34,342 bases of DNA from Deltaproteobacteria bacterium (lineage in GTDB: Bacteria; Desulfobacterota; Desulfobacteria; Desulfobacterales; Desulfosalsimonadaceae), in assembly GCA_013151835.1 (NCBI GenBank), contig JAADHK010000012.1, positions 1-34,342 of the forward strand, written 5' to 3'. The notes beneath the pieces were generated by a model that did not search any database, had not been told where the DNA came from, and worked only from the letters and a program-made list of their open reading frames with translations. Position 1 is the first letter of the stretch. The number at the start of each line of letters is the position of its first letter. Below, piece by piece: positions 536 through 23,206 of the stretch. The position numbers were made by a program, and so were the translations under genes.

Positions 536-555
536 GAAAGACTGGAGAAAAAGAT

Positions 556-1661: not shown

Positions 1662-1824
1662 TTTAAAGTCGCCAGCATATCCTTTATTAACCCGGCAGGT
1701 TTTACGGATCAAGTACAGATCATTAAATATGGATCAACGTAATGCATGCAAATCACAAGCCCGCAAACCCGGGCGATTATAAAACCCCGACTTATAAAAC
1801 CCTTGGACAAGGGGGAGGTGCACA
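1662..1824 (+). other. Intergenic spacer between pilX and pilY1
   Basis: This gap of 163 nt holds no credible gene. I see no T-tract terminator, so pilY1 is probably read from the same transcript. The only clear signal is the GGGGGAGGTG ribosome site close to the pilY1 ATG. Confidence 0.5.
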
Positions 1825-5170: not shown

Positions 5171-6359
5171 GTGGGAATACCCGGGCAGCGGCATTATAGA
5201 CGATGATATGGGCTACTCATACAGCAGGGCCTATATCGTCAACACCAAGGCCGCCGGGTGGGTGGTCATCTTCGGGAACGGGTATGACAGTGTAAACGGA
5301 GAGGCGGTTCTTTACGTGCTTGATCCGACTTATGGATACCCGGTAGCCACCATCCACACCGGGGTCTTCGGTTGCAACGGGCTTTCCACACCCGCCGTGA
5401 TCGATGTAGACATCAATGGCCAGATCGACCTGGTTTATGCCGGGGACCTGAAGGGCAATATGTGGAAATTCGACTTCTCCGGCCCCAGTGTTTCCGACTG
5501 GAAGGTCGCCTATGATGATAATAGTGTGCCGATGCCTCTTTTTACCGCGAAAAATGCCAACGGCGATATTCAGCCCATCACCTCGTCGCCGGATGTCATG
5601 AAACATTGCGAGCAGGGACTGGGGGGCTATATCGTCGTATTCGGCACAGGCGAATACCTGGGCACGCCTGATTTTGCCGACACCACCGTCCAGAGCCTGT
5701 ACGGTATCTGGGACTGGGGGGAGCCCTGGGTCAACCTGAATAATGATCAGGATGAGGATAACGACAAGTATTATGGCTATTTCAAAATAGACCGAACCCT
5801 GTCGAACCTGGACGGAAACACCAACATGACCAGCGCCGTACAGGCGCTGACGCTCCTTGAGCAGACCATTGAATACAGCACCGCAGATTACCTGGTGGTA
5901 TCCAACAACACCATTGACTATTACAACCCTACAACCGACTCGGGCACCAATGTGGGATGGTACCTGGATCTCACGGGTTTTCGCGAGCGCATCATTCGTG
6001 ATCCGATCATCAGGAACGGGGTGGCCCTGTTCGTCTCGTCGATTCCGTCGAGTTCACCGTGCTCCGCAGGCGGTCAATCCGTGATCTACCAGATCAACGC
6101 ATGCAGCGGAAGCCGGACAGACACCTCCCAGTTTGACGTAGACCTCGACGGCAAGTACGACAGTTCCGATATGATCACGCTCCCCAACGGGGATAAGGCC
6201 GCGCCTTCGGGCCAGAAGATAAACAAGATGCTCTATGATCCGATTATCATAAAGGACAGGATGTATATCAACGACGCCACCGGCAGTATCAACAATATGC
6301 CGATTCCAAAGATCCTTGCCGGGCAGTTCTTCTGGCGGGAGATTGAAAACAACTGGTAG
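5163..6359 (+). CDS. pilY1: PilY1-like adhesin, C-terminal propeller fragment (frameshifted gene, part 3 of 3)
   Basis: 398 residues that continue the PilY1 C-terminal beta-propeller directly (MFKWEYPG, ARAYIVNTK-type strand, VVIFGNGYDS). At about residues 75-95 the loop DVDINGQIDLVYAGDLKGNMWKFD matches the PilY1 calcium-binding loop (acidic residues at alternate positions, then YAGD and the WKFD strand). It ends naturally at ILAGQFFWREIENNW. The ATG at 5163 overlaps the TAA of the previous frame by 8 nt, so re-initiation is conceivable, but no clear ribosome site is seen. The simplest view is a second indel near 5157-5168, for example a lost AT in GATATG, restoring a TADMFKWEYP-like sequence. 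Confidence 0.82.
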   Translation: MFKWEYPGSGIIDDDMGYSYSRAYIVNTKAAGWVVIFGNGYDSVNGEAVLYVLDPTYGYPVATIHTGVFGCNGLSTPAVIDVDINGQIDLVYAGDLKGNMWKFDFSGPSVSDWKVAYDDNSVPMPLFTAKNANGDIQPITSSPDVMKHCEQGLGGYIVVFGTGEYLGTPDFADTTVQSLYGIWDWGEPWVNLNNDQDEDNDKYYGYFKIDRTLSNLDGNTNMTSAVQALTLLEQTIEYSTADYLVVSNNTIDYYNPTTDSGTNVGWYLDLTGFRERIIRDPIIRNGVALFVSSIPSSSPCSAGGQSVIYQINACSGSRTDTSQFDVDLDGKYDSSDMITLPNGDKAAPSGQKINKMLYDPIIIKDRMYINDATGSINNMPIPKILAGQFFWREIENNW

Positions 6360-7870: not shown

Positions 7871-7950
7871 AGCAGTGTTTGGATTATCTGTTTTTATTCC
7901 CTGTGAGGGCGCAATCCGTCCCCGGACTGATTTACCAAGGAGATTTTTCC

Positions 7951-10035: not shown

Positions 10036-13000
10036 CGTGGGGTACACGGCCCTGCCGGGCACGAATTTCATTGATCTGGTTTTAACGGTTGATAAATCGG
10101 TCAGCCCCCAGGTCGTTTCCACGGCATCCGGGTCAACGACCGTTTTTACCCTGGACGTGAAATCCTATGACTTTCCGGTGGACGGCATTACGATTGCCGA
10201 TGCCCTGCCAGGCGGGTGGGAATTCGTGACAGACAGCGCCACCATAACCCTTGCGGACAAGACTCAGCTGATCGGCGCCGCCGCGAATCCCACCATAACA
10301 GGCGCCGGGCCGTACACTCTGACCTGGCCGACTTCTCTTCTCGGGAGCCTGGCCGCCAACCAGGAGATCACGGTTGTTTTTACGGGCCGGACCACGCAGG
10401 TTTTTGCCGTGGGGGACCTGTCGCGCAACCTGGTTAACGCCACGGGCACGCGCACGGTGGAAGGGGTCACCCAGACCTTTAACGCCTGGGATTCGGTGTT
10501 CGTGAGTTATGGTAACCTCACGATAAGCAAGACAACGGGCGGTACCGATCCTTTAAGCCCGGGCGATCAATACACCTACACGGTTGTCGTGACCAGTCCG
10601 GCTGCGGCGACCGGGGATCTTACCGGTATCGCCATATATGACCCGCTCCCGAACGGTGTGGGGTATGTTGCGTCAAGCTCGTCCGTTACGGCCCCGAACC
10701 GTGTTTCACCCATCAGGGCGACCGAGTACTACCTGGGCGCGGGCAATTTTACCGGCACGACTTATGACCTGACTCTGAACCAGGATCTTGCATCCGACTA
10801 TTTCGTCATTATTCGGGGGGCCGACGGCGACGGCACCGCCAATACAAATACGGGCCCGGATTCCAATTACCCGGCCCTGACGGCTGACCCCATAGGCACG
10901 GGCGACCTGGCCGCGTCCGGCGCGACCAACACGATTACCCTCACCCGCCACGCCTCGCCCCATGACTGGATCGGAGTGGTCACGGTAGTGGAATGTGTCA
11001 ACAACCAGGCAACAGACGGGTTTAGGCTCCTTTCCGTGGAGCGGGTTCCTCATCCTTCCGGCGGGACCGGCAGCACAGATACATCTGCGGCGGCGTGGAC
11101 GGATATCAACCAGGTGATGCTCATGGGAGGTTTTAACGGGGCGGGATGCGACACCACTGAGGCGAGCAACAACAATATGGTTACCTGCTGGGCAAGGATA
11201 TGGCCGACGGGGACCGATACCATCAACTGGAGCAGGAATGCGGGGGGAGCAACCCTTTCGGCCGCCACGAGTACGGTGATGGTCGTCTCCTGGGGGAGCA
11301 ACTGGACCGTGCAGAGGCTGGAGGTCACCGGTACCAACGGAGGGGATGGGGTGAACGCGGCCGGTGAATATAACACCGCACCCCTTGGAACCTCGGTGAC
11401 ACGTGCCAATACCTGGATCTGGGGCACGGGATTCACGAATAATAACGGCCTGGGCGACGGCGCCGAGGGTGTGGTCGTGACCCTGGGAGACGGGGTGACG
11501 CAGAACGCCACTGAAAGCACGGTGGCCGTGGCCACCGAGTATGTCGGCACCTCCATCGATTTCGAGGTCTATGCCCTGACCCATGCCAATATCGCGGTCG
11601 ATTACAGGTTCAAGGCCGACGCGGACACAACCGCCCTTACCGTGGATGTGCCGGTGGACAGCGCGACATCAAACCGCATTGCATTGTCGTATAACACCTG
11701 CAACGGCACGGGCACGGCATATCCCCGGCCCTTGTTTTCGGCCAGGTATACGTCCAATACAAACGTGCGGCTGGAGCGGCGGCGCTCCGGCCAGCCCTTT
11801 GCCGCATGGGTACAGGGGATAGAATTTTCAATACCGGTATCAGGCACGAGCGTATATCCGGGACACACGCCCCCCAATTTTGTCAGGGCATCCGACGGCT
11901 TCATCCTTTCCCCGGGCGAAACCCTTACCTTGACCTATGACGTGACGGTGGACAACCCCCTGGCGACCGGGATCGATACCATAACAAACACCGCGTCCGT
12001 GACAACGGCGGAGATAAAGACGCCCATAAGCGATTCCGCGACCAATATCGTGACCAACCCGAGCGCGGCCTCCGCCAAGGCGGGGGACCGGGTATGGCTC
12101 GACACCAACGGCGACGGGGTTCAGGACGTGGGAGAACCGGGCCTTTCCAACGTTACCGTTACGCTGAAGGACCAGTACGGTACGCCCATTGCAACGGCCA
12201 CCACGGACGGGAACGGCAATTACCTCTTCGACGGAGTGACCCCTGATACCGGGTATTACGTGGAAGTCACGGCCGGGCTGCCCTCCGGGCTGGTACAGTC
12301 CTGGCCTGCGGGCCATTCGGACAACAAGACCGATCCCTTTGATCTCATCGCCGGACAGACCTACCTGGATGCCGACCTCGGCTATACAGGCGCGCCCGGC
12401 ACCGCCACCCTCGGTGATTTCGTCTGGTCGGACGCGGACGGAGACCAGGCTCAGGATGCAGGCGAGCCCGGGATTTCAGGGGTGACGGTGGAGCTCTATC
12501 TGGATGACGGGGACGGGGTGTTCGAGCCGGGAGCGGGCCCAGGCAATGACGGGGTCGCCGTGGCCACGGCCGTCACCGGCACCAACGGGAACTATCTCTT
12601 CACCGGGGTGACCGCATCCGGCACCGAGGACTACTGGATCGCGGTGGATACCTCCCAGGCCATCCTGACAGGCTACACCGCCACGACCGCGACCCTCAGG
12701 TCCGTTACCAGCGTCAATGCCGGAGATGTTTTGTTAACCTATGATTTCGGGTTTCAAAACCCGAATACCTATTCCATCAGGGACCGGGTCTGGTACGACC
12801 TTGACGAGGATGGCAACGACGATAACGCGACTGTAAACGCGGAGAGCGGTATTTCAGGCGTGACCGTGGACCTGCTTGATGCAAGCCTGAACGTCATCGC
12901 GAGCACGACAACCGACGCAAACGGGTATTTCACCTTTTCCGGGCTTGTTGGAAACGGGGCCGACTACACGGTAAAGATAACCGACACAAGCGGCAAGCTC

Positions 13001-16000
13001 ACCGATTATTTCGGCACCACGGTCCCGGCCCAGGCCGGGGATCTGGCGGTGAACAACCTTATTGCGGACATCGATTACTCGGCCGAGCCCTCCGAGCCCA
13101 ATTTCGGCTATTCCGTGGCCGGCACAATCGGCGATACCGTATTTAATGACATCGGCGGCACAAGCGGGGTCCAGGATACCGGCGAGCCCGGAATATCAAG
13201 CGTAACCGTTGATTTATACCTTGATAACGGGAACGGCGTGTTCGAGCCTGGCGGGGCTGACGGAAGCGCGCTTTTCACCCTTACGACCGATTCCAGCGGG
13301 CAATACCTTTTTTCAGGTCTTAACGACGGAACCTACTGGGTCGATATCGACAACACCCAGCCGGCCCTTACCAGCTATGATCTTTTGACCACGGCCGACG
13401 ATGACGGTTCCGCCGCAGGCCACCAGCGGCTGGTGACCATTGTCGGCGGGGGGAGCGATCTGACTATTGATTACGGCTACCGGGCCTCGGTGCAGCGGAG
13501 TGTGTCCGGAACATTGTGGAGCGACGCGGACCAGGACGGGATCCTGGATGTGGGCGAACTCGGCATTTCCGGCGTGACCATCGACCTTCTGGACGGCGTC
13601 ACCGTGATCAATTCCACCACCACGGATGCCAACGGCGATTATTCCTTTACGGGCCTTCCCTCCGGCACCTACACGGTGCGGATCACCGATAACAGCGGGG
13701 TGCTCACCGATTACACGACGACCTTTGAAGTCAGCGAAGGTGCAAACACTCCCCCCTATAATGGGGAAGAATCCGTTAACCTGACAGGAGGCAATGTTAC
13801 TAATATCGATTTCGGGTATTACAAGCCCACGCCCACCTATGCGCTGATATCCTCCTTTACGGCAAAGGACTCCGGCGGCCGGGTGAGGGTCACGTGGAAG
13901 ACCTCGGCCGAGGTAGGGTGCGCCGGGTTCTACCTCCAGCGCAAAAACGGGTCAGGCGCGTATCAGCCGGTATCAAAGGCGTTGGTCCCGTCGGTGATGT
14001 CGCCTGCGGGCGGGACCTATAGCATGATCGACCCGGATGCCGTATCCGGCGTCATATACACCTACCGGCTCATTGAACTGGAATCTTCCGGGCGCAGGCG
14101 CGTCTGGGGGCCGTTTACGGTGACGGTGGCCCCTTCGGACGGAGGCGCGATCTCGACCCTCGGCACGGCCGCATATATTGCCATGCCCCGGACCCGCGAA
14201 CCTGCGGCCCGGGACGGCCAAAACAGGCTTTCGCTATCCCGGCATCTGTACCGGTCCGCCGGCCCGGCGACTCCCCTGGCTCAGGTTAAGCTCATCACAT
14301 CGGCGTCCGGCATTTACGCATTGAGCGCGGCCTACATTGCCGCCGGCCTGGGTATCTCCGAAGATGAGGCCGCCGGCCTGGTGTCTTCCGGCCGCATATA
14401 TCTTACCTCCAACGGCGCGATTGTTCCCATGCTGCCCTTTGCCGATAACACCGGGATCTATTTTTATGCGCGGCAGCAGGAGAGTATTTATACCGACAAG
14501 ACAGTGTTTTGGCTGTTTGCCGATTACGATGGTGAAAAAGGGGATGTAAACGGCGACGGAAAGGTGAATGACGCCGACTTTGCCGTCTGTATTTCCGTGC
14601 TGAACGGCCTCCCGGCGCCCACGCTCAGGCCGGATTATCCCGAATCCGGGGCCGACGTGAATGGAAATCGGACAATCGATATGGCCGAGGCCGCCTATAT
14701 ATCGGCCATCGTGCATCGGAACATAAAATCCGCCATGGCGACCGCTCCGGCCCTGCCCGTGTCCGGAGATATTCAAACGATTATCCCGGCGGTCCGGCAC
14801 TACGAACAGGATCTGTTTGACAAGACCGACCTCTTTTCAGATCCAAACGCCGATTACTGGTTCTGGACCTTCGTGATTCCCGGTGATTCGAATTTCGGAA
14901 GCGCGACGCTGCCCATTATGATTGACGCCCCTGCTTCCGGCGGCTCTGCCGCAAACCTTCACGTCAACCTCTACGGAGTGGTCAATTATCCCGGAGGGCC
15001 TGATTATCATGCAAGACTCATGCTGAACGGCACGCTTTTGGGCGAATATACCTGGGACGGCCTTACACCCCATACTTTAACCGCATCAGTGGATTCGTCG
15101 CTTTTAATCGACGGGGAAAATACCCTTGCCATCGAGGGGGTGGCAGGCGATCCCGCAACGCCGGGCATTTTTGCCGTTGATTCGGTTGACCTGGAATACG
15201 AGCGCATGGCTTCCGCCAAAGACGACCGGCTGGATATTTTGCCGGGTACCGCCGGTCCTGTCCGTGTATCCGGGTTTTCCGGGCCGGATATCCTGGCGCT
15301 CGATATCGCCGATCCGGCCCATCCGGCACGGATTTCAGGTATATCCGCGACCGGCTCCGGCACGGCCTGGAACATGGATCTGATGCCTGAAAACAAAGAT
15401 AAATCATATGCCCTTGCAGGCCCGGGGGGCGCTATGACCCCGGAAATAGCGGCATCGCATGTCCGGCCGGAGCTTAAAACCAGCCCGGGAGCGGATTATC
15501 TCATCATCGCTGGAGACGATCTCGCGTCCGGCGCGCAAACGCTTGCCGACTACCGGGCCGCCCGTGGTTTTACGCCCATGGTCGTAACCGTGTCTGAAGT
15601 CTATGATACCTTCGGACACGGCGTAAAAGACCCCGGCGCCATTGCAGTTTTTATAAAGTATGCTTATAAAAAATGGGCACTTGTCCCGAAATATGTTGTT
15701 CTGGTGGGTGACGGCACCTATGATTACAAGGACCATCTCGGCACGTCCGACAACCTGGTTCCGGTTTTGATGACTCCCACGTCCGAGGGGCTCTTTGCAT
15801 CGGATACCCTGTTTGTTGATTCTGACGACGACAAAATTCCGGATATTCCCATCGGCCGGATCGCCGTGACGACCGACGCCGAGCTTTCGGCGGCGATCAG
15901 CAAGATAGAGGCGTTCGAGGCCGGGTCCGGTGGGAGAAACATCCTGATGGTGGCCGACCGGGCCGATGACGGCGGTGATTTTCCAGCCGCCAGCGATACC

Positions 16001-16522
16001 GTGGCCGCCCTTGTGCCTGATTCCCTGTTTCTGGAAAGGATTTATCTTGCAGGATCGGTTTCTGCGGCCGAGGCCCGTGCCCAATTGATCGACGGTATCA
16101 ATACCGGCGCTTTTATACTAAATTATATTGGCCACGGCGGCATAGACAGGATATCCAATTCATCGCTTTTGAAATCAGGTGATGAGAGCCTGCTTGACAA
16201 TGCCGGGCATTATCCCATTGCCGTTACCCTTACCTGCCTTGCGGGACAGTTCTCGGTTCCGGGCCTCGATTCCCTCGTAGAGGAGATGATGGCGGCTCCC
16301 GGCAAGGGGTTTGTGGCCGGGTGGGCGCCTACCGGCCTTTCCCAGAACAGCGGGGCCGTTGATTTAAACAAGGACCTTTTCACCGCGATGTTTGCCGACA
16401 ATGCCCCGGATCTCGGCACGGCCGTGATCAATGCCATCCGTAAATACCGGGTGGACGGCGGCTCGGCCGGGCTTCCCATGGTCTATAACCTCCTGGGCGA
16501 TCCGGCCCTTGACATAAGATAA
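10019..16522 (+). CDS. Giant surface protein with DUF11, five SdrD-like B repeats, dockerin-like repeats and C25 peptidase (frameshifted gene, part 2 of 2)
   Basis: Continues the 7951 gene in the +1 frame, about 2167 residues. Order by base position: DUF11-like repeat region 10100-12060 (LTISKTTGGTDPLSPGDQYTY, AIYDPLPNGVGYV); five SdrD B-like/Cna-B-type domains 12070-13830, each with a GDxVWxDxDxDGxQDxGEPG and TTDxNGxYxFxGL pattern; a fibronectin-type segment 13835-14130; a C25 N-terminal region from 14280; two dockerin-like calcium repeats 14540-14730 (GDVNGDGKVNDADF and ADVNGNRTIDMAEA); a jelly-roll segment 14810-15215; and the C25 (gingipain-like) peptidase 15490-16520. The catalytic His is in NYIGHGG (codon 16133) and the catalytic Cys in LTCLAGQF (codon 16235). 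Both are intact, so it is likely an active cysteine peptidase. It is probably exported, with substrates unknown. The cohesin-domain gene follows 44 nt downstream. Confidence 0.82.
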   Translation, partial: ASPAIDVGYTALPGTNFIDLVLTVDKSVSPQVVSTASGSTTVFTLDVKSYDFPVDGITIADALPGGWEFVTDSATITLADKTQLIGAAANPTITGAGPYTLTWPTSLLGSLAANQEITVVFTGRTTQVFAVGDLSRNLVNATGTRTVEGVTQTFNAWDSVFVSYGNLTISKTTGGTDPLSPGDQYTYTVVVTSPAAATGDLTGIAIYDPLPNGVGYVASSSSVTAPNRVSPIRATEYYLGAGNFTGTTYDLTLNQDLASDYFVIIRGADGDGTANTNTGPDSNYPALTADPIGTGDLAASGATNTITLTRHASPHDWIGVVTVVECVNNQATDGFRLLSVERVPHPSGGTGSTDTSAAAWTDINQVMLMGGFNGAGCDTTEASNNNMVTCWARIWPTGTDTINWSRNAGGATLSAATSTVMVVSWGSNWTVQRLEVTGTNGGDGVNAAGEYNTAPLGTSVTRANTWIWGTGFTNNNGLGDGAEGVVVTLGDGVTQNATESTVAVATEYVGTSIDFEVYALTHANIAVDYRFKADADTTALTVDVPVDSATSNRIALSYNTCNGTGTAYPRPLFSARYTSNTNVRLERRRSGQPFAAWVQGIEFSIPVSGTSVYPGHTPPNFVRASDGFILSPGETLTLTYDVTVDNPLATGIDTITNTASVTTAEIKTPISDSATNIVTNPSAASAKAGDRVWLDTNGDGVQDVGEPGLSNVTVTLKDQYGTPIATATTDGNGNYLFDGVTPDTGYYVEVTAGLPSGLVQSWPAGHSDNKTDPFDLIAGQTYLDADLGYTGAPGTATLGDFVWSDADGDQAQDAGEPGISGVTVELYLDDGDGVFEPGAGPGNDGVAVATAVTGTNGNYLFTGVTASGTEDYWIAVDTSQAILTGYTATTATLRSVTSVNAGDVLLTYDFGFQNPNTYSIRDRVWYDLDEDGNDDNATVNAESGISGVTVDLLDASLNVIASTTTDANGYFTFSGLVGNGADYTVKITDTSGKLTDYFGTTVPAQAGDLAVNNLIADIDYSAEPSEPNFGYSVAGTIGDTVFNDIGGTSGVQDTGEPGISSVTVDLYLDNGNGVFEPGGADGSALFTLTTDSSGQYLFSGLNDGTYWVDIDNTQPALTSYDLLTTADDDGSAAGHQRLVTIVGGGSDLTIDYGYRASVQRSVSGTLWSDADQDGILDVGELGISGVTIDLLDGVTVINSTTTDANGDYSFTGLPSGTYTVRITDNSGVLTDYTTTFEVSEGANTPPYNGEESVNLTGGNVTNIDFGYYKPTPTYALISSFTAKDSGGRVRVTWKTSAEVGCAGFYLQRKNGSGAYQPVSKALVPSVMSPAGGTYSMIDPDAVSGVIYTYRLIELESSGRRRVWGPFTVTVAPSDGGAISTLGTAAYIAMPRTREPAARDGQNRLSLSRHLYRSAGPATPLAQVKLITSASGIYALSAAYIAAGLGISEDEAAGLVSSGRIYLTSNGAIVPMLPFADNTGIYFYARQQESIYTDKTVFWLFADYDGEKGDVNGDGKVNDADFAVCISVLNGLPAPTLRPDYPESGADVNGNRTIDMAEAAYISAIVHRNIKSAMATAPALPVSGDIQTIIPAVRHYEQDLFDKTDLFSDPNADYWFWTFVIPGDSNFGSATLPIMIDAPASGGSAANLHVNLYGVVNYPGGPDYHARLMLNGTLLGEYTWDGLTPHTLTASVDSSLLIDGENTLAIEGVAGDPATPGIFAVDSVDLEYERMASAKDDRLDILPGTAGPVRVSGFSGPDILALDIADPAHPARISGISATGSGTAWNMDLMPENKDKSYALAGPGGAMTPEIAASHVRPELKTSPGADYLIIAGDDLASGAQTLADYRAARGFTPMVVTVSEVYDTFGHGVKDPGAIAVFIKYAYKKWALVPKYVVLVGDGTYDYKDHLGTSDNLVPVLMTPTSEGLFASDTLFVDSDDDKIPDIPIGRIAVTTDAELSAAISKIEAFEAGSGGRNILMVADRADDGGDFPAASDTVAALVPDSLFLERIYLAGSVSAAEARAQLIDGINTGAFILNYIGHGGIDRISNSSLLKSGDESLLDNAGHYPIAVTLTCLAGQFSVPGLDSLVEEMMAAPGKGFVAGWAPTGLSQNSGAVDLNKDLFTAMFADNAPDLGTAVINAIRKYRVDGGSAGLPMVYNLLGDPALDIR
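14540..14730 (+). other. Dockerin-like calcium repeat pair inside the giant C25 protein
   Basis: Two about 22-residue repeats, GDVNGDGKVNDADFAVCISVL and ADVNGNRTIDMAEAAYISAIV (each written as its key loop and helix), have the D-x-N-x-D-G-x-x-x-x-x-D calcium loop followed by a hydrophobic helix as in type I dockerins. The second loop is weaker, with Arg and Thr at usual ligand-adjacent places. The pair lies before the peptidase domain rather than at a terminus, which is unusual for dockerins. Confidence 0.6.
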
Positions 16523-16566
16523 GGATGTTTTGCCGATACGTGATTATTATGTAAAGGAGTCTCCAA

Positions 16567-18234
16567 ATGCTTAAAAAACATAATGCATGGCCGTTTATGG
16601 CGATCGCTCTGGCTGTTTTCATTTTTGCGGCGGATGCGGCCGCAGTCTCGCTGCACATGGCAGCAGACACCGACACGCTGAAGCCGGGCCAGGACTTTTT
16701 CGTCGAGATACTGGCGGATGATCCGTCCGGGACCACAGGCGCCGTGTTTTCGATTTACTACCCAAAAGATGCTCTCCAGGCCGACCAGTCATCCGTGTCG
16801 AGTCCGTTTTTCGAATCCGGATCCTGGCAGGCCAATTTTGATGAACCAGGGGTTGTATATTTTGCCGGGCTCCTTTCTCCGGATACGCAGGATGCCGTAA
16901 AAGCGGCATTCTTCGGCGTTTCCTTTCATGTCAGGGATACTGCGAACCAGGAACGTGTAACCCTGGTTCTTGACAATAGCCGGCTATGCGATCCGGCTGC
17001 CGGGTGGGGGGTGGATATCGACGGAGACGGGACCTGCGAGTCATGGGGACTGCCCCCGGTCCTGACCTCTACCGTTTTTGTTGAAGCGGCTGAAAACAAC
17101 GTTGTTGTATCGGCGGCCGAAACCACGGTGGTCCTGGAAGGCTTTTTCAGCCCGCCCAGACTTTCAATGGCCTTGGCCACCGACCTTTGCCCGGATGACC
17201 CGGACAAGGCTGCCCCGGGGATTTGCGGATGCGGCGTGGCAGACATTGATACGGACGGCGACAATGTTTTGGACTGTAACGACGCCTGCCCCGATGACCC
17301 GGAAAAAATCAATGCCGGGGCCTGTGGATGCGGGGTCGCCGATATTGATGAAAATGAAAACGGAATCGCGGATTGCGTGGAAGCGATTGTCTCCCCCGGC
17401 CCTGAAACCGTGAATGTAAATCCTCCGGCAAGCCTTGAAATCATGCCGTTTCCCGGCGGGGCCGGCAACGGAACCGGAATATTATGGCAGATCGCCGGGG
17501 ACGTGGGTTTTTCCGACATGATATTCACCATGACCGGGCCCGCCGCTTCAAATACCCTGACGATACCGGACCTGCTTCTTTCTGGCCACGTCCAGTATTT
17601 CTGGCGGGCCACTTATCTGGGCGGACCGCAAGGATCGGTTAGCAGGACGGCTGCCGCCTGGTTTACCACCGGGACCGCAGACATGCTTGACGGTAACGGA
17701 AACGGTGTCCCGGACGATCAGGAACCGGGTGGCTCCGAAAATCTGATCCAGGAAAGGCTGGTTGACCTGGAATCAAGGGATATCAAATATATCCGTACCG
17801 ATACCGGCGAGTTCCAGTTCGGGTTGCTGCCGGATGCCACGGACACTATCATCGAGGCCGTAAAATGGATGGCGGCCGATGAATCCGGCACCACAGTATT
17901 GCCTATGCCCTTTCCCCGGGGCGTGCTTGCATTCAGGATACAGACGGTAACGCCTGGTGACGAGGTGGGGGTGACCATATATTTTGGCCACCGGCTGGCA
18001 TCCGGCCAGAGATGGTGGAAATTCACGCCGGCCGGTGGGTGGGCCGGTTATTCGGAGCATGCGGATATCGCAAAGGACCGCATGTCCGTCCACCTGGTAT
18101 TAAAGGACGGCGGATTCGGGGATGCCGACGGCGTGGTCAACGGGATCATAGTTGATCCATCGGGTCCGGCCGGGAATGAAACAGGCGGGAATTCCGGCGG
18201 ATGTTTTATCGACCAGGTTACCGGCAGTCGATGA
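16567..18234 (+). CDS. Exported cohesin-like domain protein with thrombospondin-3-like repeats
   Basis: 555 residues, with AAAGGAG just upstream of the ATG. A signal peptide covers residues 1-26. Residues about 27-180 look like a cohesin domain (LKPGQDFFVEILADDPSG, AVFSIYYPKDALQ, FFGVSFHVRD, VTLVLDNSRL). Residues 204-275 hold two copies of a Cys/Asp-rich unit (CPDDPDKAAPGICGCGVADIDTD and CPDDPEKINAGACGCGVADID), like thrombospondin type 3 calcium repeats. An Ig/FN3-like segment follows (about 280-375), then a domain resembling the choice-of-anchor U type (about 390-540). It ends GGNSGGCFIDQVTGSR, where Gly-rich plus CFI recalls the CFI-box C-terminal signal but lacks the usual longer tail. The stop overlaps the next ATG (ATGA). 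A natural role is binding the dockerin-like repeats of the two flanking C25 peptidases; this is inference. Confidence 0.72.
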   Translation: MLKKHNAWPFMAIALAVFIFAADAAAVSLHMAADTDTLKPGQDFFVEILADDPSGTTGAVFSIYYPKDALQADQSSVSSPFFESGSWQANFDEPGVVYFAGLLSPDTQDAVKAAFFGVSFHVRDTANQERVTLVLDNSRLCDPAAGWGVDIDGDGTCESWGLPPVLTSTVFVEAAENNVVVSAAETTVVLEGFFSPPRLSMALATDLCPDDPDKAAPGICGCGVADIDTDGDNVLDCNDACPDDPEKINAGACGCGVADIDENENGIADCVEAIVSPGPETVNVNPPASLEIMPFPGGAGNGTGILWQIAGDVGFSDMIFTMTGPAASNTLTIPDLLLSGHVQYFWRATYLGGPQGSVSRTAAAWFTTGTADMLDGNGNGVPDDQEPGGSENLIQERLVDLESRDIKYIRTDTGEFQFGLLPDATDTIIEAVKWMAADESGTTVLPMPFPRGVLAFRIQTVTPGDEVGVTIYFGHRLASGQRWWKFTPAGGWAGYSEHADIAKDRMSVHLVLKDGGFGDADGVVNGIIVDPSGPAGNETGGNSGGCFIDQVTGSR

Positions 18235-20612
18235 TGGGGGAATATTTAATCTGTTTGTCCGGGTGCCGCAGTCGCGTTTTTAAGGCCATGGCCTTCGTGG
18301 TAATCCTTTCGGCCTTGTGGACAGGCCTTGATGTCGGCCCGGCCATGGCTGGACTCCCTTCAGGCCTTATCCAGGTCCGGGCGGAAGTATCCGAATCGGG
18401 AATTTATCGTATAGAATCCGATGCTCTTGCACAAACCATAGGCGTACCGGTCGACGATGTCCGAAGCTGGATATCCGGAGGCCGGTATCAGGCTGTGAAC
18501 ATGGGCGAACGGGTCGACACCCTTTCGCTCCCGGATGGCGGGGGGTTTTATTTTTACGGCCGGAAGCTTTCGAATCAATTCACCGATACCAATATTTACT
18601 GGCTTAACTTTTTCACCTCCCGGCCTGCCGGGGATGTGACCGGAGACGGGTTGGCGGATGACCGGGACGTTTCCGCCGGCCTCAATGTGCTCACGGCAAA
18701 GCAGTCTGGGAACAATTCCGGTGATGACGGATACGGCGGGATAAATATGGCCCGTCTTGCCACGGCCCTTCATTCGATAAAGGCGCGTGCCCTGGGGTGT
18801 ATGGGCTCTGTTGCAGCCGATATCCCCGGTTTTTCTACGCCCGGCCTTTTATTTCATGTCACAGCCCACGCCGAAGAAGACCGCTATGATATGACCGCCG
18901 ACGCAAATGATCCGGATGTCGATTACTGGTTCTGGGACGTTATCTTTGCAGGCGACCCACAGAAGGGAACCTTAAATTTTAAGATAAAAACCCCCGGCGC
19001 ATCGCCGATAGGAGATGATGCGATCCTTACCGTATATCTCAAGGGCGCGGTAAATGTCCCGGGTCGGCCGGACCACCATGTGAATATATCGCTCAATGGA
19101 AACTTTCTGGGTGAAGGTTTTTTTGACGGGACAGAGTCGTATGTTCAGAGTTTTTCCTTTGATCCTGCGTTTTTGTCCGACGGTGAAAATACCGTTTCCG
19201 TGACCGGGCTGCTTGAAGACGGCGTTGCCTATTCCGCCTTTGCGGTGGACTCCTTCGAACTTTCCTACTCCCGTGAATACCGGGCTCAAAACGACGCGCT
19301 CGCTTTTTTTGCGGACAAGAACGACGTCATTAGGGTTGATGGATTTACAAATGACAACATCCTCCTGTTCGATGTCTCCGACCCAGTCCATCCCCTGGTC
19401 GTGGACGGCGCGGAAATATCGGCTACGGGTGATGGCTTTTCCCTCTCCTTTGTGCCTGCCGGACCGGATACCCGGTATTTTGCCGTCAGACCCGGGGCCG
19501 TCCTTTTTCCCGGGCGAATGACGAAAAATAAGGAATTTGCCGACCTTAAGCATCAATCGGCCCAATACCTCGTGATTGCCCCGGAGCGGCTGGTCAATGG
19601 TGCGGCGCGTCTTGCCCAATACCGGACCGATCATGGCCTGACAACTTTTGTGGTTAGGCTTTCCGACGTGTTTGACCAGTTTTCATATGGTCTCTATAAT
19701 CCGCATGCCATTCACGATTTTATTGCATATGCGTCGGAAAACTGGGACACCCCGCCGGCCTTTGTGGTTCTGGTAGGAGATGGCACCTATGATTACAAGG
19801 ATATTTTAGGGGCCGGGGACAATTGTATCCCGGTGTTGATGAAGGCTACCCCTTACGGACTTGCGGCATCCGACTTTTCGTATACCGACATTGACGACGA
19901 CGACGTGCCCGATATCCCCATCGGAAGGATTCCGGTTTCGACGCCTGCGGCCCTTGATTCCTTTATCAACAGGATAGAGGCCCACGAGGCAAGGCTTGAT
20001 GCTTCGGCAAAAACGGTTATTATGGTGGCGGACAAAAAGGATCAATATGCCGGCGACTTCCCTTCTGACAGTGATGCGCTGGCTCAACATGTGCTTTTGC
20101 CGTATGATGTGGAAAAAATTTACCTTTCACAACTCTCCACCACGGCCGCCCGGCAGGAGTTGATCAATGCCATCAATTCGGATCAGGGGCACGGCGCGTT
20201 CCTGGTCAACTACATCGGCCACGGCGGGATCACGCAGCTTTCATCAGGGGGTGTGTTGCGGGACGTGGATGCCGCTTTTCTGACCAACGGACCGCCGTAT
20301 CCCCTCCTGGTAACCATGACCTGTATCGCCGGCCAGTTTCAGAACCCCGGGTACCCGAGTCTGAGTGAAGCCATGCTGACCGCTGATGCTGGCGGGTTTT
20401 CGGCGGCGTTTGTCCCCTCCGGCCTTTCATTAAACGTGGACGCGGTCATTATCAACCGGTATCTGTTTGACATTCTTTTTTCGGACCGCAAAACCGTCAT
20501 AGGCCCCGCCGTGCTTGCGGCCCTGCAGAAGTATGTGCGGGAAGGAAACTTTGAATACATGCGCTGGATATACAATTTGCTGGGCGACCCGGCGATGCGT
20601 GTTGCAAGATAA
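18231..20612 (+). CDS. Exported C25 (gingipain-like) cysteine peptidase with dockerin-like repeat
   Basis: 793 residues. The ATG at 18231 overlaps the previous stop (ATGA), which favours it over an earlier in-frame ATG at 18201. A signal peptide-like run (AMAFVVILSALWTGLDVGPAMA) ends near residue 40. The N-terminal region (VSESGIYRIESDAL, GGGFYFYGRKL, FTDTNIYWLNFF) parallels that of the giant peptidase. A dockerin-like loop GDVTGDGLADDRDV with a poorer second repeat lies at about residues 133-185. A jelly roll follows, then the C25 domain from about residue 440 with LVGDGTYDYKD. Catalytic His664 is in YIGHGG and Cys698 in MTCIAGQF; both are present. It ends LLGDPAMRVAR, like its paralogue. 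The PqqD-like gene starts 13 nt later, so the peptidase and the peptide-modification genes probably share a transcript. Confidence 0.85.
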   Translation: MMGEYLICLSGCRSRVFKAMAFVVILSALWTGLDVGPAMAGLPSGLIQVRAEVSESGIYRIESDALAQTIGVPVDDVRSWISGGRYQAVNMGERVDTLSLPDGGGFYFYGRKLSNQFTDTNIYWLNFFTSRPAGDVTGDGLADDRDVSAGLNVLTAKQSGNNSGDDGYGGINMARLATALHSIKARALGCMGSVAADIPGFSTPGLLFHVTAHAEEDRYDMTADANDPDVDYWFWDVIFAGDPQKGTLNFKIKTPGASPIGDDAILTVYLKGAVNVPGRPDHHVNISLNGNFLGEGFFDGTESYVQSFSFDPAFLSDGENTVSVTGLLEDGVAYSAFAVDSFELSYSREYRAQNDALAFFADKNDVIRVDGFTNDNILLFDVSDPVHPLVVDGAEISATGDGFSLSFVPAGPDTRYFAVRPGAVLFPGRMTKNKEFADLKHQSAQYLVIAPERLVNGAARLAQYRTDHGLTTFVVRLSDVFDQFSYGLYNPHAIHDFIAYASENWDTPPAFVVLVGDGTYDYKDILGAGDNCIPVLMKATPYGLAASDFSYTDIDDDDVPDIPIGRIPVSTPAALDSFINRIEAHEARLDASAKTVIMVADKKDQYAGDFPSDSDALAQHVLLPYDVEKIYLSQLSTTAARQELINAINSDQGHGAFLVNYIGHGGITQLSSGGVLRDVDAAFLTNGPPYPLLVTMTCIAGQFQNPGYPSLSEAMLTADAGGFSAAFVPSGLSLNVDAVIINRYLFDILFSDRKTVIGPAVLAALQKYVREGNFEYMRWIYNLLGDPAMRVAR
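18629..18785 (+). other. Dockerin-like repeat region in the second C25 peptidase
   Basis: A clear D-x-T-x-D-G-x-x-x-x-x-D loop (GDVTGDGLADDRDV) is followed by a helix-like segment. A decayed second copy lies near GDDGYGGINMARLATALHS. Its location corresponds to the dockerin-like pair in the paralogous giant protein, just after a conserved YWLxF segment. Confidence 0.45.
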
Positions 20613-20625
20613 AAAAGGGAAAAAG

Positions 20626-20943
20626 ATGCCTGTGAACAACGATAATGCCGTAAATGCCCGCCTCGACCGGGTTCTTGCGCGTAAAGACGATATCGTCTCG
20701 CGTGATATTGCGGGAGAGACCTTTCTCGTTCCGATCCGTGGAGACCTCGCCGACATGCAGAAAATATTCACGCTCGATACCGTTGCCGCATTTATCTGGG
20801 ATTCCATTGACGGAAAACGGGCGCTGTCCGATATCCTCGATTCAGTGACCGGAAAATTCGATGTGACCCGTGAATCCGCTGCCGCCGACCTCGAGGCTTT
20901 TTACGGCGAACTTCTGGAAAACGGGCTTATCCTTGAACTATAG
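20626..20943 (+). CDS. PqqD-family peptide chaperone (RiPP recognition element)
   Basis: 105 residues from ATG 20626, with AAAGGGA about 6 nt upstream. It has the PqqD pattern: DDIVSRDIAGETFLVPIRGDLADMQKIF, then DTVAAFIWDSIDGKRALSDILDSV and a helical AAADLEAFYGELLENGLIL end. PqqD proteins form the recognition element that binds the leader of a precursor peptide and delivers it to a radical SAM/SPASM enzyme. Here that enzyme starts 11 nt after this gene and the likely precursor follows. The version with an extended N-terminus ahead of the SRDIAGE motif is the kind found in cassettes with HPr-kinase-like proteins, which fits the gene at 22213. It is probably cytoplasmic. Confidence 0.88.
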   Translation: MPVNNDNAVNARLDRVLARKDDIVSRDIAGETFLVPIRGDLADMQKIFTLDTVAAFIWDSIDGKRALSDILDSVTGKFDVTRESAAADLEAFYGELLENGLILEL

Positions 20944-20954
20944 AGGTTTGGTAA

Positions 20955-22025
20955 ATGGAATGCACAGCCGATTTTTTTGAAAATTTCAGCATAAAATCGG
21001 AAAAAAAAAGAATTCCCCTTTCCGGCAGTATTGAGATAACAAGGCGATGCAATTTTTCCTGCGTCCATTGCTACCTCGGCGGGATGCGCATAGGCAATGG
21101 AGAGCTTGAGACTTCAAAATGGCTTCATATCATAGATGAAATAACGGATGCCGGGTGTCTGTTTTTACTCTTTACAGGCGGAGAGCCGCTTTTACGCCCT
21201 GATTTTCCGGAAATTTACCGTTATGCGCGCAAGCAAGGCATGGTTGTTACCGTATTTACAAACGGAAGCCTGGTTGATAAAAAGATCATAGACCTTTTTT
21301 CGGAATTTCCGCCCCAGGGGGTTGAAATCACTCTTTACGGGGCAAGCCCCGGCGTATATAAAAAAATAACCGGAAAGGCCGAAAATTATAAAAAGGTCAT
21401 GGCCGGGATAGACGCGCTGGTATCGGCGGGCATCAATACCCGGCTCAAGACCGTCCTTCTGACCGTAAACATGGCCGAGTTTTCCGTCATGGAAAAGATA
21501 GCCGATAACCTTGGCGTGAAATTCAGGTTTGACGCAGCCATTTTTCCGCGTTTCGACGGTGACAAGACCCCTGTTCAATTCAGGGTTTCTCCCAAAGACG
21601 CAGTAAGAACGGAGCTTTTATCTCAAAAGCGGGCCGATGAATGGAAAAAATACACAATCCGCATGGCCGGAGTTACGCTTTCGGATTCTCTGTACGATTG
21701 CAGCGCGGGTTTGAACACCTTTCACATAGATCCGCAAGGGATTCTTCAGCCTTGCATTATGGTCCCGCATGTGAGATATAATTTAACGGTTGGCGGTTTT
21801 TCAAAGGGATGGCATGATATTATACCCGAGGTAAGAAAGATTCGTCTGCTGGATGATTTTAAATGCAGAAATTGCACGGATCGGATATATTGCGGGTTCT
21901 GCCCCGGTTTTTTCAGGCTTGAAACAGGAGATGAAACAGTTATATCTCAATATCTCTGTTCAATTGGCCGTCAAATGGGCCGGGCCGTTTCCGGATTAAT
22001 TGCAGATGGAGACAACAATGGATGA
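20955..22025 (+). CDS. Radical SAM/SPASM peptide maturase
   Basis: 356 residues. The CxxxCxxC motif (Cys32, Cys36, Cys39; CNFSCVHC) holds the SAM-reactive 4Fe-4S cluster. FTGGEPLLRPDF is the SAM-binding GGE motif and EITLYGA the following strand. The C-terminal SPASM region (about residues 245-340) has Cys in YDCSAG, LQPCIM, KCRNC, YCGFC and YLCS, enough for auxiliary clusters. Enzymes of this class make thioether, C-C or epimerised products on ribosomal peptides. It is flanked by a PqqD gene and by a small Cys-containing peptide gene whose ATG overlaps its last 8 nt. The reaction cannot be told from sequence. It is cytoplasmic and oxygen sensitive, in keeping with an anaerobe. Confidence 0.9.
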   Translation: MECTADFFENFSIKSEKKRIPLSGSIEITRRCNFSCVHCYLGGMRIGNGELETSKWLHIIDEITDAGCLFLLFTGGEPLLRPDFPEIYRYARKQGMVVTVFTNGSLVDKKIIDLFSEFPPQGVEITLYGASPGVYKKITGKAENYKKVMAGIDALVSAGINTRLKTVLLTVNMAEFSVMEKIADNLGVKFRFDAAIFPRFDGDKTPVQFRVSPKDAVRTELLSQKRADEWKKYTIRMAGVTLSDSLYDCSAGLNTFHIDPQGILQPCIMVPHVRYNLTVGGFSKGWHDIIPEVRKIRLLDDFKCRNCTDRIYCGFCPGFFRLETGDETVISQYLCSIGRQMGRAVSGLIADGDNNG

Positions 22026-22200
22026 GAAGAACAAAAAAAAACTCCCCTATGAGCGGCCGAGGCTCAAGGTGATCGAACTTGTGGCTGACGAGGTTCTTGC
22101 CATTGGATGCAAGCTTGCGGGCGTCGGCCAGGCGGCGTTTGGAAACGCTGCCTTTAACCAGTGCACCCTGCCGCGCCGCTGCTATAATCCCGGTTCTTGA
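22018..22200 (+). CDS. Candidate RiPP precursor peptide, 60 residues, three Cys, C-terminal Ser
   Basis: ATG 22018 is chosen because GGAG lies 6 nt upstream and it overlaps the radical SAM stop. In-frame TTG 22000 and ATG 22006 would add 6 or 4 residues. The N-terminal half (KKLPYERPRLKVIELVADEVLAIG) is a leader-like segment. The K-P-Y-E-x-P-x-L start followed by an acidic amphipathic helix is common in peptides beside PqqD/SPASM genes. The second half, from about Cys31, is a small core of Gly, Ala, Asn, Phe and three Cys (31, 49, 55), ending CYNPGS. No hydrolase or globular domain is visible. It is most simply the substrate of the adjacent radical SAM enzyme. The HPr-kinase-like gene starts 12 nt after its stop. 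A C-terminal Ser beside a kinase gene recalls lasso-peptide kinases; this is speculation. Confidence 0.72.
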   Translation: MDEKNKKKLPYERPRLKVIELVADEVLAIGCKLAGVGQAAFGNAAFNQCTLPRRCYNPGS

Positions 22201-22212
22201 CCACGCACCCCG

Positions 22213-23154
22213 ATGGATAAAGACCCCTGCTGTTTCACCCTTTTCATCGGTGGGGAGCGCCTGACAGTCGCAACAGACGGTATCGCGTTTCCCGATCCGC
22301 TGTATCCCAATCCTGCCTATTCCTTTTTTACATCCCTTTTGCCGGGGACAGACTTTTGCAAGACAGATGTTCTGGTCACAGCCTCGCCCCCCCCGAACCT
22401 GTCGGTTGTTCAATGGTTGTTTAACAATTGTGCTTCCGTAGATGATTCCGGGGGCGCTTCCTGGTCTGCGGGCATTCATGACGGACTCGTTTATATAAAA
22501 TTTGCCGGTCTGTCGTCCTGTCCCCTTTGGGTTGCCCGGTTTCTTCCCGATGCGTCCCGCGTCACGGTCTTTTGTGGAAAGGAGATAATAGACGCAAACA
22601 AGAAAAAGCTTCTCTTAAATCCCGTGACATACCCCTTAGACCAGATACTCCTGATGTACGGGCTTGCGGGCAGGGGGGCGGTCTGCCATGGGGCCGGGTG
22701 GCTTGCAAATAACTCCGGCCTTGTATTTGCAGGCGTTTCCGGTGCGGGAAAGACCACCATCGCAAATCTTCTGGCCCAAAACAAGTCCGGCCGGCTCTTG
22801 AGTGACGACAGGGTAATCATCTGCGAAGAGGCCGGGAAATTTTATGTTTACGGCACCCCCTGGCCGGGTGAAGGCGGGTATGCAAAAAATGAGCGCTCAA
22901 CCATGAACGCCCTTTTTTTTCTGGCCCGTGGAGATGAAAACAGGATTGAGCCTGTTTCGCCCGCAATTGCCGCTTCCCTTATTTTGCCGGTCCTTTCCAT
23001 TCCCTGGTATGACGCGGATATCACAACATCCATGCTCGATTTCTGCGACCGGCTGGTTTCGCGTGTCCCGGCGTATCGTATGGCCTTTACGCCCGATGAT
23101 AGCGTTGCGGATGAAGTTTTGCGCTTTGTAAAACAGACGGGTGGTTTTTTTTGA
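22213..23154 (+). CDS. HPr kinase-like protein of a peptide modification cassette
   Basis: 313 residues. The C-terminal half has a Walker A motif GVSGAGKTT (residues 174-182) preceded by CHGAGWLANNSGLVFA, the arrangement of HPr kinase/phosphorylase (HprK) and its relatives. LLSDDRVII (about 196-204) resembles the HprK Walker B-like SDD element, and TPWPGEGGYAKN is a further family-like segment. The N-terminal half is unlike the HprK sensor domain. No HPr or PTS gene is near. Similar proteins occur in cassettes with PqqD and SPASM proteins, and HprK-like kinases phosphorylate the C-terminal Ser of some lasso peptides. A role acting on the preceding 60-residue peptide or its product is therefore plausible. 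The start lacks a strong ribosome site, so coupling with the upstream gene is likely. Confidence 0.78.
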   Translation: MDKDPCCFTLFIGGERLTVATDGIAFPDPLYPNPAYSFFTSLLPGTDFCKTDVLVTASPPPNLSVVQWLFNNCASVDDSGGASWSAGIHDGLVYIKFAGLSSCPLWVARFLPDASRVTVFCGKEIIDANKKKLLLNPVTYPLDQILLMYGLAGRGAVCHGAGWLANNSGLVFAGVSGAGKTTIANLLAQNKSGRLLSDDRVIICEEAGKFYVYGTPWPGEGGYAKNERSTMNALFFLARGDENRIEPVSPAIAASLILPVLSIPWYDADITTSMLDFCDRLVSRVPAYRMAFTPDDSVADEVLRFVKQTGGFF

Positions 23155-23179
23155 GATTGCACGTTCTTTGTGTTATACA
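23151..23179 (+). promoter_or_regulatory. Candidate sigma-70-type promoter for the secretion ATPase gene
   Basis: TTGAGA (23151-23156), 17 nt, TATACA (23174-23179). It overlaps the end of the HPr-kinase-like gene and sits about 30 nt before the ATG at 23207, so the ATPase gene may be transcribed separately from the peptide cluster. Read by eye. Confidence 0.45.
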
Positions 23180-23206
23180 TACAAAAACTCACACAAAGGG
23201 TCGTCC

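Follow-up and report, generated by a model that had tools for sequence, protein, structure and literature searches.

A gene cassette for a predicted phosphorylated peptide, associated with C25-family proteases in many bacterial phyla

Described systems and the composition of the locus

Several lasso peptides carry a phosphate at their C-terminus (the kinases being PadeK of paeninodin, ThcoK, SyanK, and PsmK of pseudomycoidin), where an HprK-like kinase with a His-Lys-Asp-Asp motif phosphorylates a C-terminal Ser, and PsmN, a nucleotidyltransferase homologue, adds hexose to a phosphoserine (PMC9266682). The YxxPxL motif of lasso leaders is recognized by B1 proteins, and one lasso kinase acts on Ser3 of its precursor BsfA rather than on the C-terminus (PMC10368454). 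Other systems that share components with the locus considered here are the SynChlorMet cassette (ScmC–F, NCBIfam TIGR04248–04251), which combines the PqqD-related ScmD, the HprK-related ScmC, and the radical SAM (rSAM)/SPASM proteins ScmE/F; sactipeptides and ranthipeptides, with a SPASM enzyme and a Cys-rich core; and the gingipain/PorU peptidases of family C25.

The window analyzed is a stretch of 34,342 nt from a Deltaproteobacteria bacterium (Desulfosalsimonadaceae; GCA_013151835.1, contig JAADHK010000012.1, here C59). The initial annotation described a compact cluster of genes for PqqD, rSAM/SPASM, a Cys-containing peptide, and an HPr kinase-like protein, and this gene arrangement is confirmed (Table 1). 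The intergenic distances are 13 nt (C25 to PqqD), 11 nt (PqqD to rSAM), an 8-nt overlap (rSAM to peptide), and 12 nt (peptide to HprK). PqqD and Radical_SAM pass their Pfam cut-offs (23.4 and 29.5 bits, respectively), whereas the SPASM model is just under its cut-off (18.2 vs. 21.5 bits); nevertheless, in an alignment of 67 rSAMs (66 related loci and the window), the CxxxCxxC cysteines are present in 66, and each of the seven SPASM cysteines in 66 or 67. Promoters, terminators, and RNA families were not examined.

Table 1. Features of the window that belong to, or lie beside, the cassette.
Position	Strand	Feature	Evidence
9920..16522	+	Giant C25 protein (2200-aa ORF) with SdrD-B-like repeats and dockerin; second C25 of the same clade	PF01364 261.7 bits (cut-off 23), PF17210, PF00404; sister of the 803-aa protein in the tree
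16567..18234	+	Choice-of-anchor U protein (555 aa) between the two C25 genes; membership in the system uncertain	NF041766 81.1 bits vs. 32
18201..20612	+	C25-family cysteine peptidase (803 aa) upstream of PqqD; member of the cassette-associated C25 clade	PF01364 248.7 bits (cut-off 23); catalytic-type His and Cys in 49 of 49 cassette-linked domains; tree
20626..20943	+	PqqD-like RiPP recognition element (105 aa)	PF05402 56.1 bits
20955..22025	+	rSAM/SPASM enzyme (356 aa)	PF04055 91.6 bits; C32, C36, C39 and C249, C267, C304, C307, C313, C316, C335
22018..22107	+	Leader part of the 60-aa precursor peptide (residues 1–30), YxxPxL at residues 11–16; leader/core border inferred	Y11 and P14 invariant in 20 of 20 aligned
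22108..22200	+	Core part of the precursor (residues 31–60 and stop): C31-K32, C49, C55, C-terminal G59-S60	C31, C49, C55 invariant, S60 in 19 of 20 aligned
22213..23154	+	HprK-like kinase (313 aa), predicted peptide kinase; P-loop G174–T182, R200, TPW 215–217	H159 in 79 of 79 aligned, K180 in 79 of 80, D198 in 81 of 81; HprK/PEPCK fold (predicted structure)

By sequence alone the HprK-like assignment is weak (PF07475, 14.3 vs. 33.3 bits; NCBIfam HprK-related kinases A and B, 17.3 and 28.3 vs. 200 bits), but the predicted structure (pLDDT 87.3) has 42 PDB matches at E <= 0.001, all of them PEPCK or HprK/P, and it aligns with PEPCK 2pc9 (Z 12.9, rmsd 5.2, 241 residues aligned) and HprK 3tqf (Z 11.4, rmsd 2.9, 121 residues aligned). 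Together with the retained P-loop, His, and Asp residues, this places the protein in the HprK/PEPCK superfamily. The retained His, Lys, and Asp match the His-Lys-Asp-Asp motif of lasso kinases (PMC9266682), but the residue after D198 is Glu in some members.

Like phosphorylated lasso peptides, the locus has a PqqD-type recognition element, a YxxPxL leader, an HprK-like kinase with His, Lys, and Asp residues, a precursor ending in Ser, and, near some related loci, NTP_transf_5; it differs in having an rSAM/SPASM enzyme, three core Cys, and C25 and S26 peptidases. A lasso peptide was rejected because no lasso cyclase (Asn synthase-like) or B2 protease hit lies on the window contig: the Asn_synthase hits of the genome (one on contig C16, about 16 kb from an S26–NTP_transf_5 fusion) and one weak Transglut_core3 hit (contig C3) are all on other contigs. 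SynChlorMet membership was rejected because the window proteins score far below the Scm cut-offs (ScmD 38.1 vs. 100, ScmE 80.3 vs. 400, ScmF 56.9 vs. 400; ScmC not listed for the window kinase); the locus also has one rSAM, another peptide, and a C25 partner; however, 18 of 21 aligned kinases match ScmC weakly (best E 1.7e-8), and three Scm proteins over cut-off lie beside the cassette in one related locus (L044; loci, genomes, and contigs are numbered L, G, and C, respectively). Unlike sactipeptides and ranthipeptides, the cassette has a discrete PqqD, an HprK-like kinase, and a C-terminal Ser; no thioether is shown. Both C25 proteins belong to peptidase family C25, but fall below the cut-off of the T9SS sortase PorU (NF033707, 213.3 and 200.2 vs. 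420 bits), which is their top NCBIfam match; a T9SS was rejected on this score, although other T9SS components were not searched for.

Distribution and conservation of the cassette

A scan seeded with HprK gave 80 loci from many phyla. These were found with one pattern, [YF]GTPW[HPA][GS][ED][AGN], and are the best 80 of 172 confirmed stretches; they are therefore not an unbiased census, the conservation of the TPW residues follows from the pattern, and two pairs share assembly prefixes (L119/L138 and L165/L178). Of the 80 loci, 75 carry the peptide (76 with that of L166, which a length filter missed and which was found by eye), 69 an rSAM, 67 PqqD, 57 an S26 signal-peptidase-like gene, and 49 a C25 peptidase. 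Loci that keep the rSAM gene without a conserved small peptide had been named beforehand as evidence against a peptide-modification cassette, and such loci were not encountered: only L108, L152, L170, and L176 show no peptide, the first three have HprK at the very end of the contig, and none of the four has a cassette-type rSAM (the two rSAM hits of L152 score 47–53 bits). The reading of the cluster as a peptide-modification (RiPP) cassette is thus strongly supported, although no modification is shown. The initial annotation reported no ABC-type peptide exporter in the window; related loci do have exporter-type ABC genes and an S26 peptidase, and the window's own genome has an S26–NTP_transf_5 (nucleotidyltransferase) fusion on another contig. 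The conserved C-terminal Ser, which is the clue to the kinase, had not been remarked upon.

Among 72 distinct peptides (without that of L166; starts were chosen by rule), YxxP is present in 72, CK in 70, and exactly three Cys from the first core Cys onward in 67; the last residue is Ser in 68, Thr in two, Ile in one, and Pro in one, and 62 end in Gly-Ser. At the core's own Ser frequency (0.104), the chance of that many final Ser is about 1e-61, if related peptides are counted as independent. In the 67 three-Cys peptides, five residues follow the last Cys in 47 and six in 17. The exceptions are L143 (its contig is as long as that of L050), which ends STI; L151, which has no Cys and ends KP; and L116 and L167, which have two Cys. 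The family is under purifying selection: of eight codon-aligned close pairs seven were pooled (three share sequences), giving core dN 0.055 vs. dS 0.57 (pN 0.053 vs. pS 0.398), with no amino-acid change in the core in four of the seven. The 20 peptides scanned match no Pfam or NCBIfam model, so the family is probably not annotated. One natural rSAM–HprK fusion lies beside a weakly matching precursor.

Eleven of the 80 loci show no rSAM, several at contig ends, and these first looked like a variant without radical chemistry. Among eight such genomes searched, a cassette-type rSAM (360–416 bits) was found elsewhere in G183, G088, G190, and G030, with S26 and an ABC gene close by in all four, and in G030 just upstream of C25. 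The other four (G125, G075, and the genomes of L151 and L173) have none (best 105 to 128 bits, apart from a 45-residue piece in G075); the L173 locus lies on a record titled 'chromosome', so the rSAM step may be dispensable.

A phylum-wide search with the peptide gave matches in 14 of 395 genomes, several of which had no HprK within 1.5 kb (L088–L092, L094–L098). With more flanking sequence, G240 and G332 do have HprK in the same stretch, and G528 has it as a fusion on contig C11; on G528 C55 and the two G513 contigs there is none, but both genomes hold HprK elsewhere, and the peptides seen there end in Ser or Thr. The G481 hit had an internal stop and was dropped. No HprK was found in G154 and G175, where the cassette meets a contig end. 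Three more distant HprK/rSAM loci (L071, L073, and L074) have candidate precursors that do not end in Ser.

Association with C25 peptidases

The suspicion that the upstream C25 peptidase belongs to the cassette is borne out. C25 is found in 21 of 27 loci with 8 kb on both sides, but in 0 of 15 more distant HprK loci; 31 of the 80 loci show no C25 within 10 kb, partly because contigs are short. Across one order, by our count, 18 of 22 cassette genomes have C25, compared with 25 of 172 others (Fisher p 2e-10). A cassette genome was defined by a hit at E <= 2e-25 in one search of these genomes or a hit in the peptide search. In a tree of 60 C25 domains (eight of 68 matches, mostly short or weak, were left out; linked, unlinked, and no-cassette labels were assigned by us), 23 of 30 domains from cassette genomes and 0 of 30 from others fall in two supported clades.

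Members of these clades outnumber cassettes: there are two in G105, three in G088, two each in G125 and G190, and two in the window genome, whereas a genome-wide peptide search gave one match each in G000 and G105 (peptides were not counted for the others). Nine of the 23 are not next to the cassette: four (one in G014, one on C18 of G105, and two in G088) are on long contigs away from it, while for G125 (two), G190 (two), and G154 the cassette contig is under 8 kb, so linkage is not excluded. Conversely, some cassette genomes lack a clade C25: G082 has only other C25 proteins, and G075, G106, G138, and G183 (77–83% complete) show none. Of the six well-flanked loci without C25 within 10 kb, L130 (genome G008) has a divergent clade C25 just beyond, and L135 (G014) has one elsewhere. 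The C25 proteins are often very large, and the domain ends within 10 residues of the C-terminus, without a long tail, in 34 of 49.

Proposed function of the cassette and alternatives

We infer, with a probability of about 0.6, that the cassette makes a RiPP that is modified by radical SAM chemistry and phosphorylated at its C-terminus. In this view, PqqD binds the YxxPxL leader and presents the precursor to the enzymes; the rSAM/SPASM enzyme modifies the three-cysteine core, most simply by making thioether bridges; and the HprK-like kinase phosphorylates the C-terminal Ser (Thr in a few relatives), as lasso-peptide kinases do, after which, in genomes with an NTP_transf_5 protein, the phosphate may receive a sugar. 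The peptide would be exported, by an ABC exporter where one is linked, and its leader removed by the S26 peptidase or the C25 peptidase outside the inner membrane, the C25 proteins being dedicated functional partners of the product. The gene set, its conservation, the purifying selection, the enzyme families, the intact catalytic residues, and the C25 clade association rest directly on the sequence and structure comparisons, whereas every chemical step, the order of steps, export, and the role of C25 are inferred, without product, expression, or activity data. Kinase activity on the peptide was not assayed, and the assignment relies on the C-terminal Ser/Thr (70 of 72) and the lasso precedent; given BsfA and the distant precursors that do not end in Ser, an HprK does not by itself imply a C-terminal phosphate. 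An S26 cleavage site (A-x-G before the first Cys) was considered for the main peptide subtype, but the second subtype does not fit and it is not claimed; cleavage by C25 after the conserved Lys was dropped because L049 and L063 lack that Lys.

Among the alternatives, it is possible, but held only tentatively, that the modified peptide is made for the C25 proteins, as a ligand, a propeptide-like regulator, or a group that the C25 domain (a relative of the PorU sortase) joins to a surface protein, so that C25 is client or user and not a leader peptidase. The excess of clade C25 copies over cassettes, the restriction of all 23 clade members to cassette genomes, the copies not next to the cassette, the often very large size of the C25 proteins, the C-terminal position of the domain, and the sub-threshold PorU match are in keeping with this reading; the cassette genomes without a clade C25 and the well-flanked loci without C25 nearby speak against it, and several proteases could also serve one peptide. 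No peptide-binding part was sought in the C25 proteins. In its fullest form, which we consider unlikely though not excluded, an rSAM-modified, C-terminally phosphorylated peptide would be made specifically for a subfamily of giant C25 surface proteins in several phyla, with one peptide serving several C25 proteins of a cell; this would be a RiPP whose purpose is to equip surface proteases rather than to be an antibiotic or a cofactor.

Somewhat less likely is an ordinary sactipeptide- or ranthipeptide-type antimicrobial, in which the rSAM makes thioethers, the exported peptide kills competitors, and kinase and C25 are accessory. The three near-invariant Cys, the complete SPASM set, and the variable residues between the Cys are consistent with this. 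However, no immunity gene was recognized among ten annotated neighbor clusters (ABC, ABC-2, six polysaccharide-type, one AAA, and one without a match; genes under 110 aa were not clustered), the core is unchanged in several close pairs, and HprK is as much a part of the set as the rSAM.

A role in making or decorating an exopolysaccharide, with the phosphoserine as an attachment point for sugar and the peptide ending up on the polysaccharide, is doubtful. NTP_transf_5 lies near 20 of 80 loci, PsmN provides a precedent (PMC9266682), Wzz, Poly_export, Wzy, and glycosyltransferase clusters recur in 3 to 6 of 92 loci, and the S26–NTP_transf_5 fusion of the window genome ends a polysaccharide operon; but these are a minority of loci, polysaccharide operons are common, and the window locus itself is beside type IV pilus genes. 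A cofactor precursor like PqqA or MftA is very unlikely, despite PqqD, the SPASM enzyme, and family-level rSAM hits to mycofactocin, PQQ, and heme maturases, because core residues between the Cys are not conserved across the family and no dedicated oxidoreductase was seen among the ten neighbor clusters.

We found no description of such a system in literature searches (including PMC4289311 and PMC9902471, and with none of the terms counted found in PMC12710340, PMC7470986, or PMC10885120), although these covered open-access papers only and are weak evidence of absence. The cassette defines a RiPP family, spread over many bacterial phyla, that combines rSAM/SPASM chemistry with the C-terminal kinase logic so far described for lasso peptides, with each chemical step inferred as above, and it gives the HprK-like kinases of PqqD/SPASM cassettes a concrete predicted substrate site. 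C25 proteins may be clients of the peptide rather than only its proteases, and the tie to a C25 subfamily offers a testable answer to what such a peptide is for.

Gene content of the locus and its distribution

The four-gene cassette is encoded on contig C59 of a 3.3-Mb genome of 147 contigs, and its arrangement was confirmed (Table below): PqqD, radical SAM/SPASM (rSAM), peptide and HprK-like genes are successively separated by 11 nt, an 8-nt overlap, and 12 nt, and a C25 peptidase gene ends 13 nt before PqqD. A Shine-Dalgarno-like GGAG lies 6 nt before the ATG at 22018. Pfam confirms PqqD, Radical_SAM, and two C25 proteins; SPASM is just under its cut-off, the HprK model is well under its cut-off, and the peptide matches no model. 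No curated NCBIfam cut-off is reached by the four cassette proteins, which for the rSAM was judged on the best 25 of 75 matches. The initial annotation, which had described a compact peptide-modification cluster, was right in its observation. Type IV pilus genes (PilW, PilX, PilY1, and a T2SSE-family ATPase with an MshEN domain) flank the C25 and peptide genes. PilY1-like sequence is split over overlapping ORFs in different frames, and the giant C25 gene seems to be preceded by a part in another frame, which shares a cluster with C25 proteins; these are frameshifts, either real or assembly errors. The choice-of-anchor U protein of the window and a protein of locus L173 have a Gly-rich GGCFI motif at or near the C-terminus, and both lie near the cassette.

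Coordinates of the cassette genes and of associated features in this and related loci
Sequence	Position	Strand	Feature
Window	20626-20943		PqqD
Window	20955-22025		radical SAM/SPASM
Window	22018-22200		60-residue peptide
Window	22213-23154		HprK-like protein
Window	1825-6359 and 7879-16522		split PilY1-like sequence; giant C25 gene with preceding part in another frame (7879-10035)
Window	2-6359 and 23141-25030		type IV pilus genes
Window	18175-18234		GGCFI motif, choice-of-anchor U protein
L173	12440-12910		GGCFI motif protein
L179 (genome G528, contig C11)	8338-10347		radical SAM/SPASM and HprK-like kinase fusion
L202 (own genome, contig C16)	8469-10331	-	S26-like peptidase fused to NTP_transf_5
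L044 (also L133)	13908-17132		SynChlorMet proteins ScmC, ScmD, and ScmF
L151	7318-9067		PqqD-peptide-HprK locus, peptide without Cys

A search of 194 genomes of the order matched the kinase in 32 (E <= 1e-6) and the peptide in 11 (E <= 0.01), and a peptide profile matched in 14 of 395 genomes of the phylum; G105, a genome of the same family, has its cassette on a contig of 34354 bases. Scanning of 37 sequence stretches showed the order C25 - PqqD - rSAM - peptide - HprK repeatedly. Conserved neighborhoods had been put forward beforehand as a test of the cluster, and a scan of named genomes with the kinase alignment provided 80 loci (the best 80 of 172 confirmed), from records titled Desulfobacteraceae, Deltaproteobacteria, Nitrospirae, Acidobacteria, Planctomycetota, Verrucomicrobia, Kiritimatiellia, Lentisphaerae, Omnitrophota, Chloroflexi, Myxococcales, and others. 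Within 10 kb, these 80 loci encode the peptide in 75 (76 including locus L166, identified by eye), rSAM in 69, PqqD in 67, S26 in 57, C25 in 49, NTP_transf_5 in 20, and a close ABC exporter in 4, although many contigs are short. Of the 27 loci with at least 8 kb on both sides, PqqD is present in 27, rSAM in 26, the peptide in 26 (by automated detection), C25 in 21, S26 in 21, and NTP_transf_5 in 7. In L044 (also L133), SynChlorMet proteins over cut-off lie directly beside a peptide cassette of the present kind.

The interpretation in the initial annotation, that of a peptide-modification cassette, is broadly supported. The locus belongs with the PqqD/SPASM RiPP cassettes, which are already known; added here are the family and its spread, the C-terminal Ser as a predicted phosphorylation site, the S26 and NTP_transf_5 partners, and the C25 clades bound to the cassette. 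No description of this gene set was found in the literature searched, which was open-access only.

The precursor peptide and its predicted modification

In an alignment of 20 peptides, Y11, P14, L21, C31, C49, and C55 are invariant, and S60 is present in 19. Among the 75 peptides detected automatically, 72 are distinct: all have YxxP, 70 have CK, 67 have exactly three Cys from the first core Cys on, and 68 end in Ser, 2 in Thr, 1 in Ile, and 1 in Pro; 62 end in Gly-Ser. Seven close pairs, when pooled, give core pN 0.053 against pS 0.398, and four of the seven show no amino acid change in the core. None of the 20 aligned peptides matches Pfam or NCBIfam at 0.01. Exceptions within the family are the peptides of L151, a gammaproteobacterial locus (no Cys, with GSK in place of GCK, ending in KP, and no rSAM nearby), L143/L050 (ends STI), L116 (two Cys, ends GT), L167 (two Cys), and L171 (ends QT).

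For the kinase, an AlphaFold2 model based on the kinase alignment gave pLDDT 87.3, and the 42 Foldseek matches at E <= 0.001 are PEPCK or HprK/P chains. VIA-align gives Z 12.9 to PEPCK 2pc9 (rmsd 5.2, 241 aligned) and 11.4 to HprK 3tqf (rmsd 2.9, 121 aligned). H159 is retained in 79 of 79 aligned sequences, K180 in 79 of 80, and D198 and R200 in 81 of 81; the residue after D198 is Asp in most members of the kinase alignment and Glu in some. PadeK and homologues phosphorylate the C-terminal Ser of lasso precursors and depend on a His-Lys-Asp-Asp motif, and PsmN, a nucleotidyltransferase homologue, adds hexose to the phosphoserine (PMC9266682). YxxPxL is the leader motif read by B1 proteins, and a kinase that instead acts on Ser3 of its precursor has been reported (PMC10368454). 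In G528, an rSAM and a kinase of these families form a single 669-aa protein (residues 11-356 and 363-663) beside a weakly matching precursor (E 3e-3), which argues that both act on one substrate. Against this, three distant HprK/rSAM loci (L071, L073, and L074) have candidate precursors, selected by eye, that do not end in Ser; these are Cys/Gly-rich repetitive small ORFs and possibly represent a different precursor family.

The rSAM enzymes retain the CxxxCxxC motif and the seven SPASM cysteines in 66 or 67 of 67 sequences. No reaction is known for the enzyme, and thioether formation is inferred from the three Cys. Of eight genomes whose cassette lacks the rSAM, four encode one elsewhere at 360-416 bits, with S26 and an ABC gene close by; the other four (G125, G075, and the genomes of L151 and L173) show none of that strength, apart from a 45-residue piece in G075.

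Proposed export and leader removal

The gene after the kinase in many loci encodes an S26/S24 signal-peptidase-like protein (one member tested passes TIGR02228), with invariant Ser57 and His96 in 11 aligned members. ABC exporters, of which four were scanned and show no protease domain in Pfam, lie beside it or beside the displaced rSAM; an ABC and an ABC-2 gene recur in 9 and 8 of 92 loci, respectively. The window lacks both, but its genome has one S26 match of this type, fused to NTP_transf_5, on contig C16 at the end of a polysaccharide operon (GT4, HD, AAA, Poly_export with FG-GAP, Wzz, Wzy). That this protein serves the cassette is a guess. An Asn_synthase hit lies about 16 kb away on the same contig.

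Association with C25 peptidases

All 49 C25 domains examined (47 from related loci, 2 from the window) retain the His and Cys, and 34 of the 49 lie near the C-terminus. In all 49 of the 80 loci with C25, it is on the strand of the kinase, upstream in 40 and downstream in 9. As a control, none of 15 more distant HprK loci of the order (L061-L076 without L063) has C25 by the same HMM, against 11 of 22 loci of the close group. In the order, C25 occurs in 43 of 194 genomes; by our count, it is present in 18 of 22 cassette genomes and 25 of 172 others (Fisher p 2e-10).

A tree of 60 of the 68 C25 domains places the 14 cassette-linked and 9 further domains in two clades (supports 96/100 and 100/100), with no member from a genome without the cassette; 7 other C25 domains of cassette genomes and all 30 of other genomes lie outside. 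Four of the 9 lie on long contigs away from the cassette, whereas for the other five, short contigs leave linkage possible. Five genomes, including that of the window, have two or three clade C25. The C25 partner is the least explained and most interesting part of the system. This distribution is what would be expected if C25 proteins need the peptide, although it also fits several proteases that act on it.
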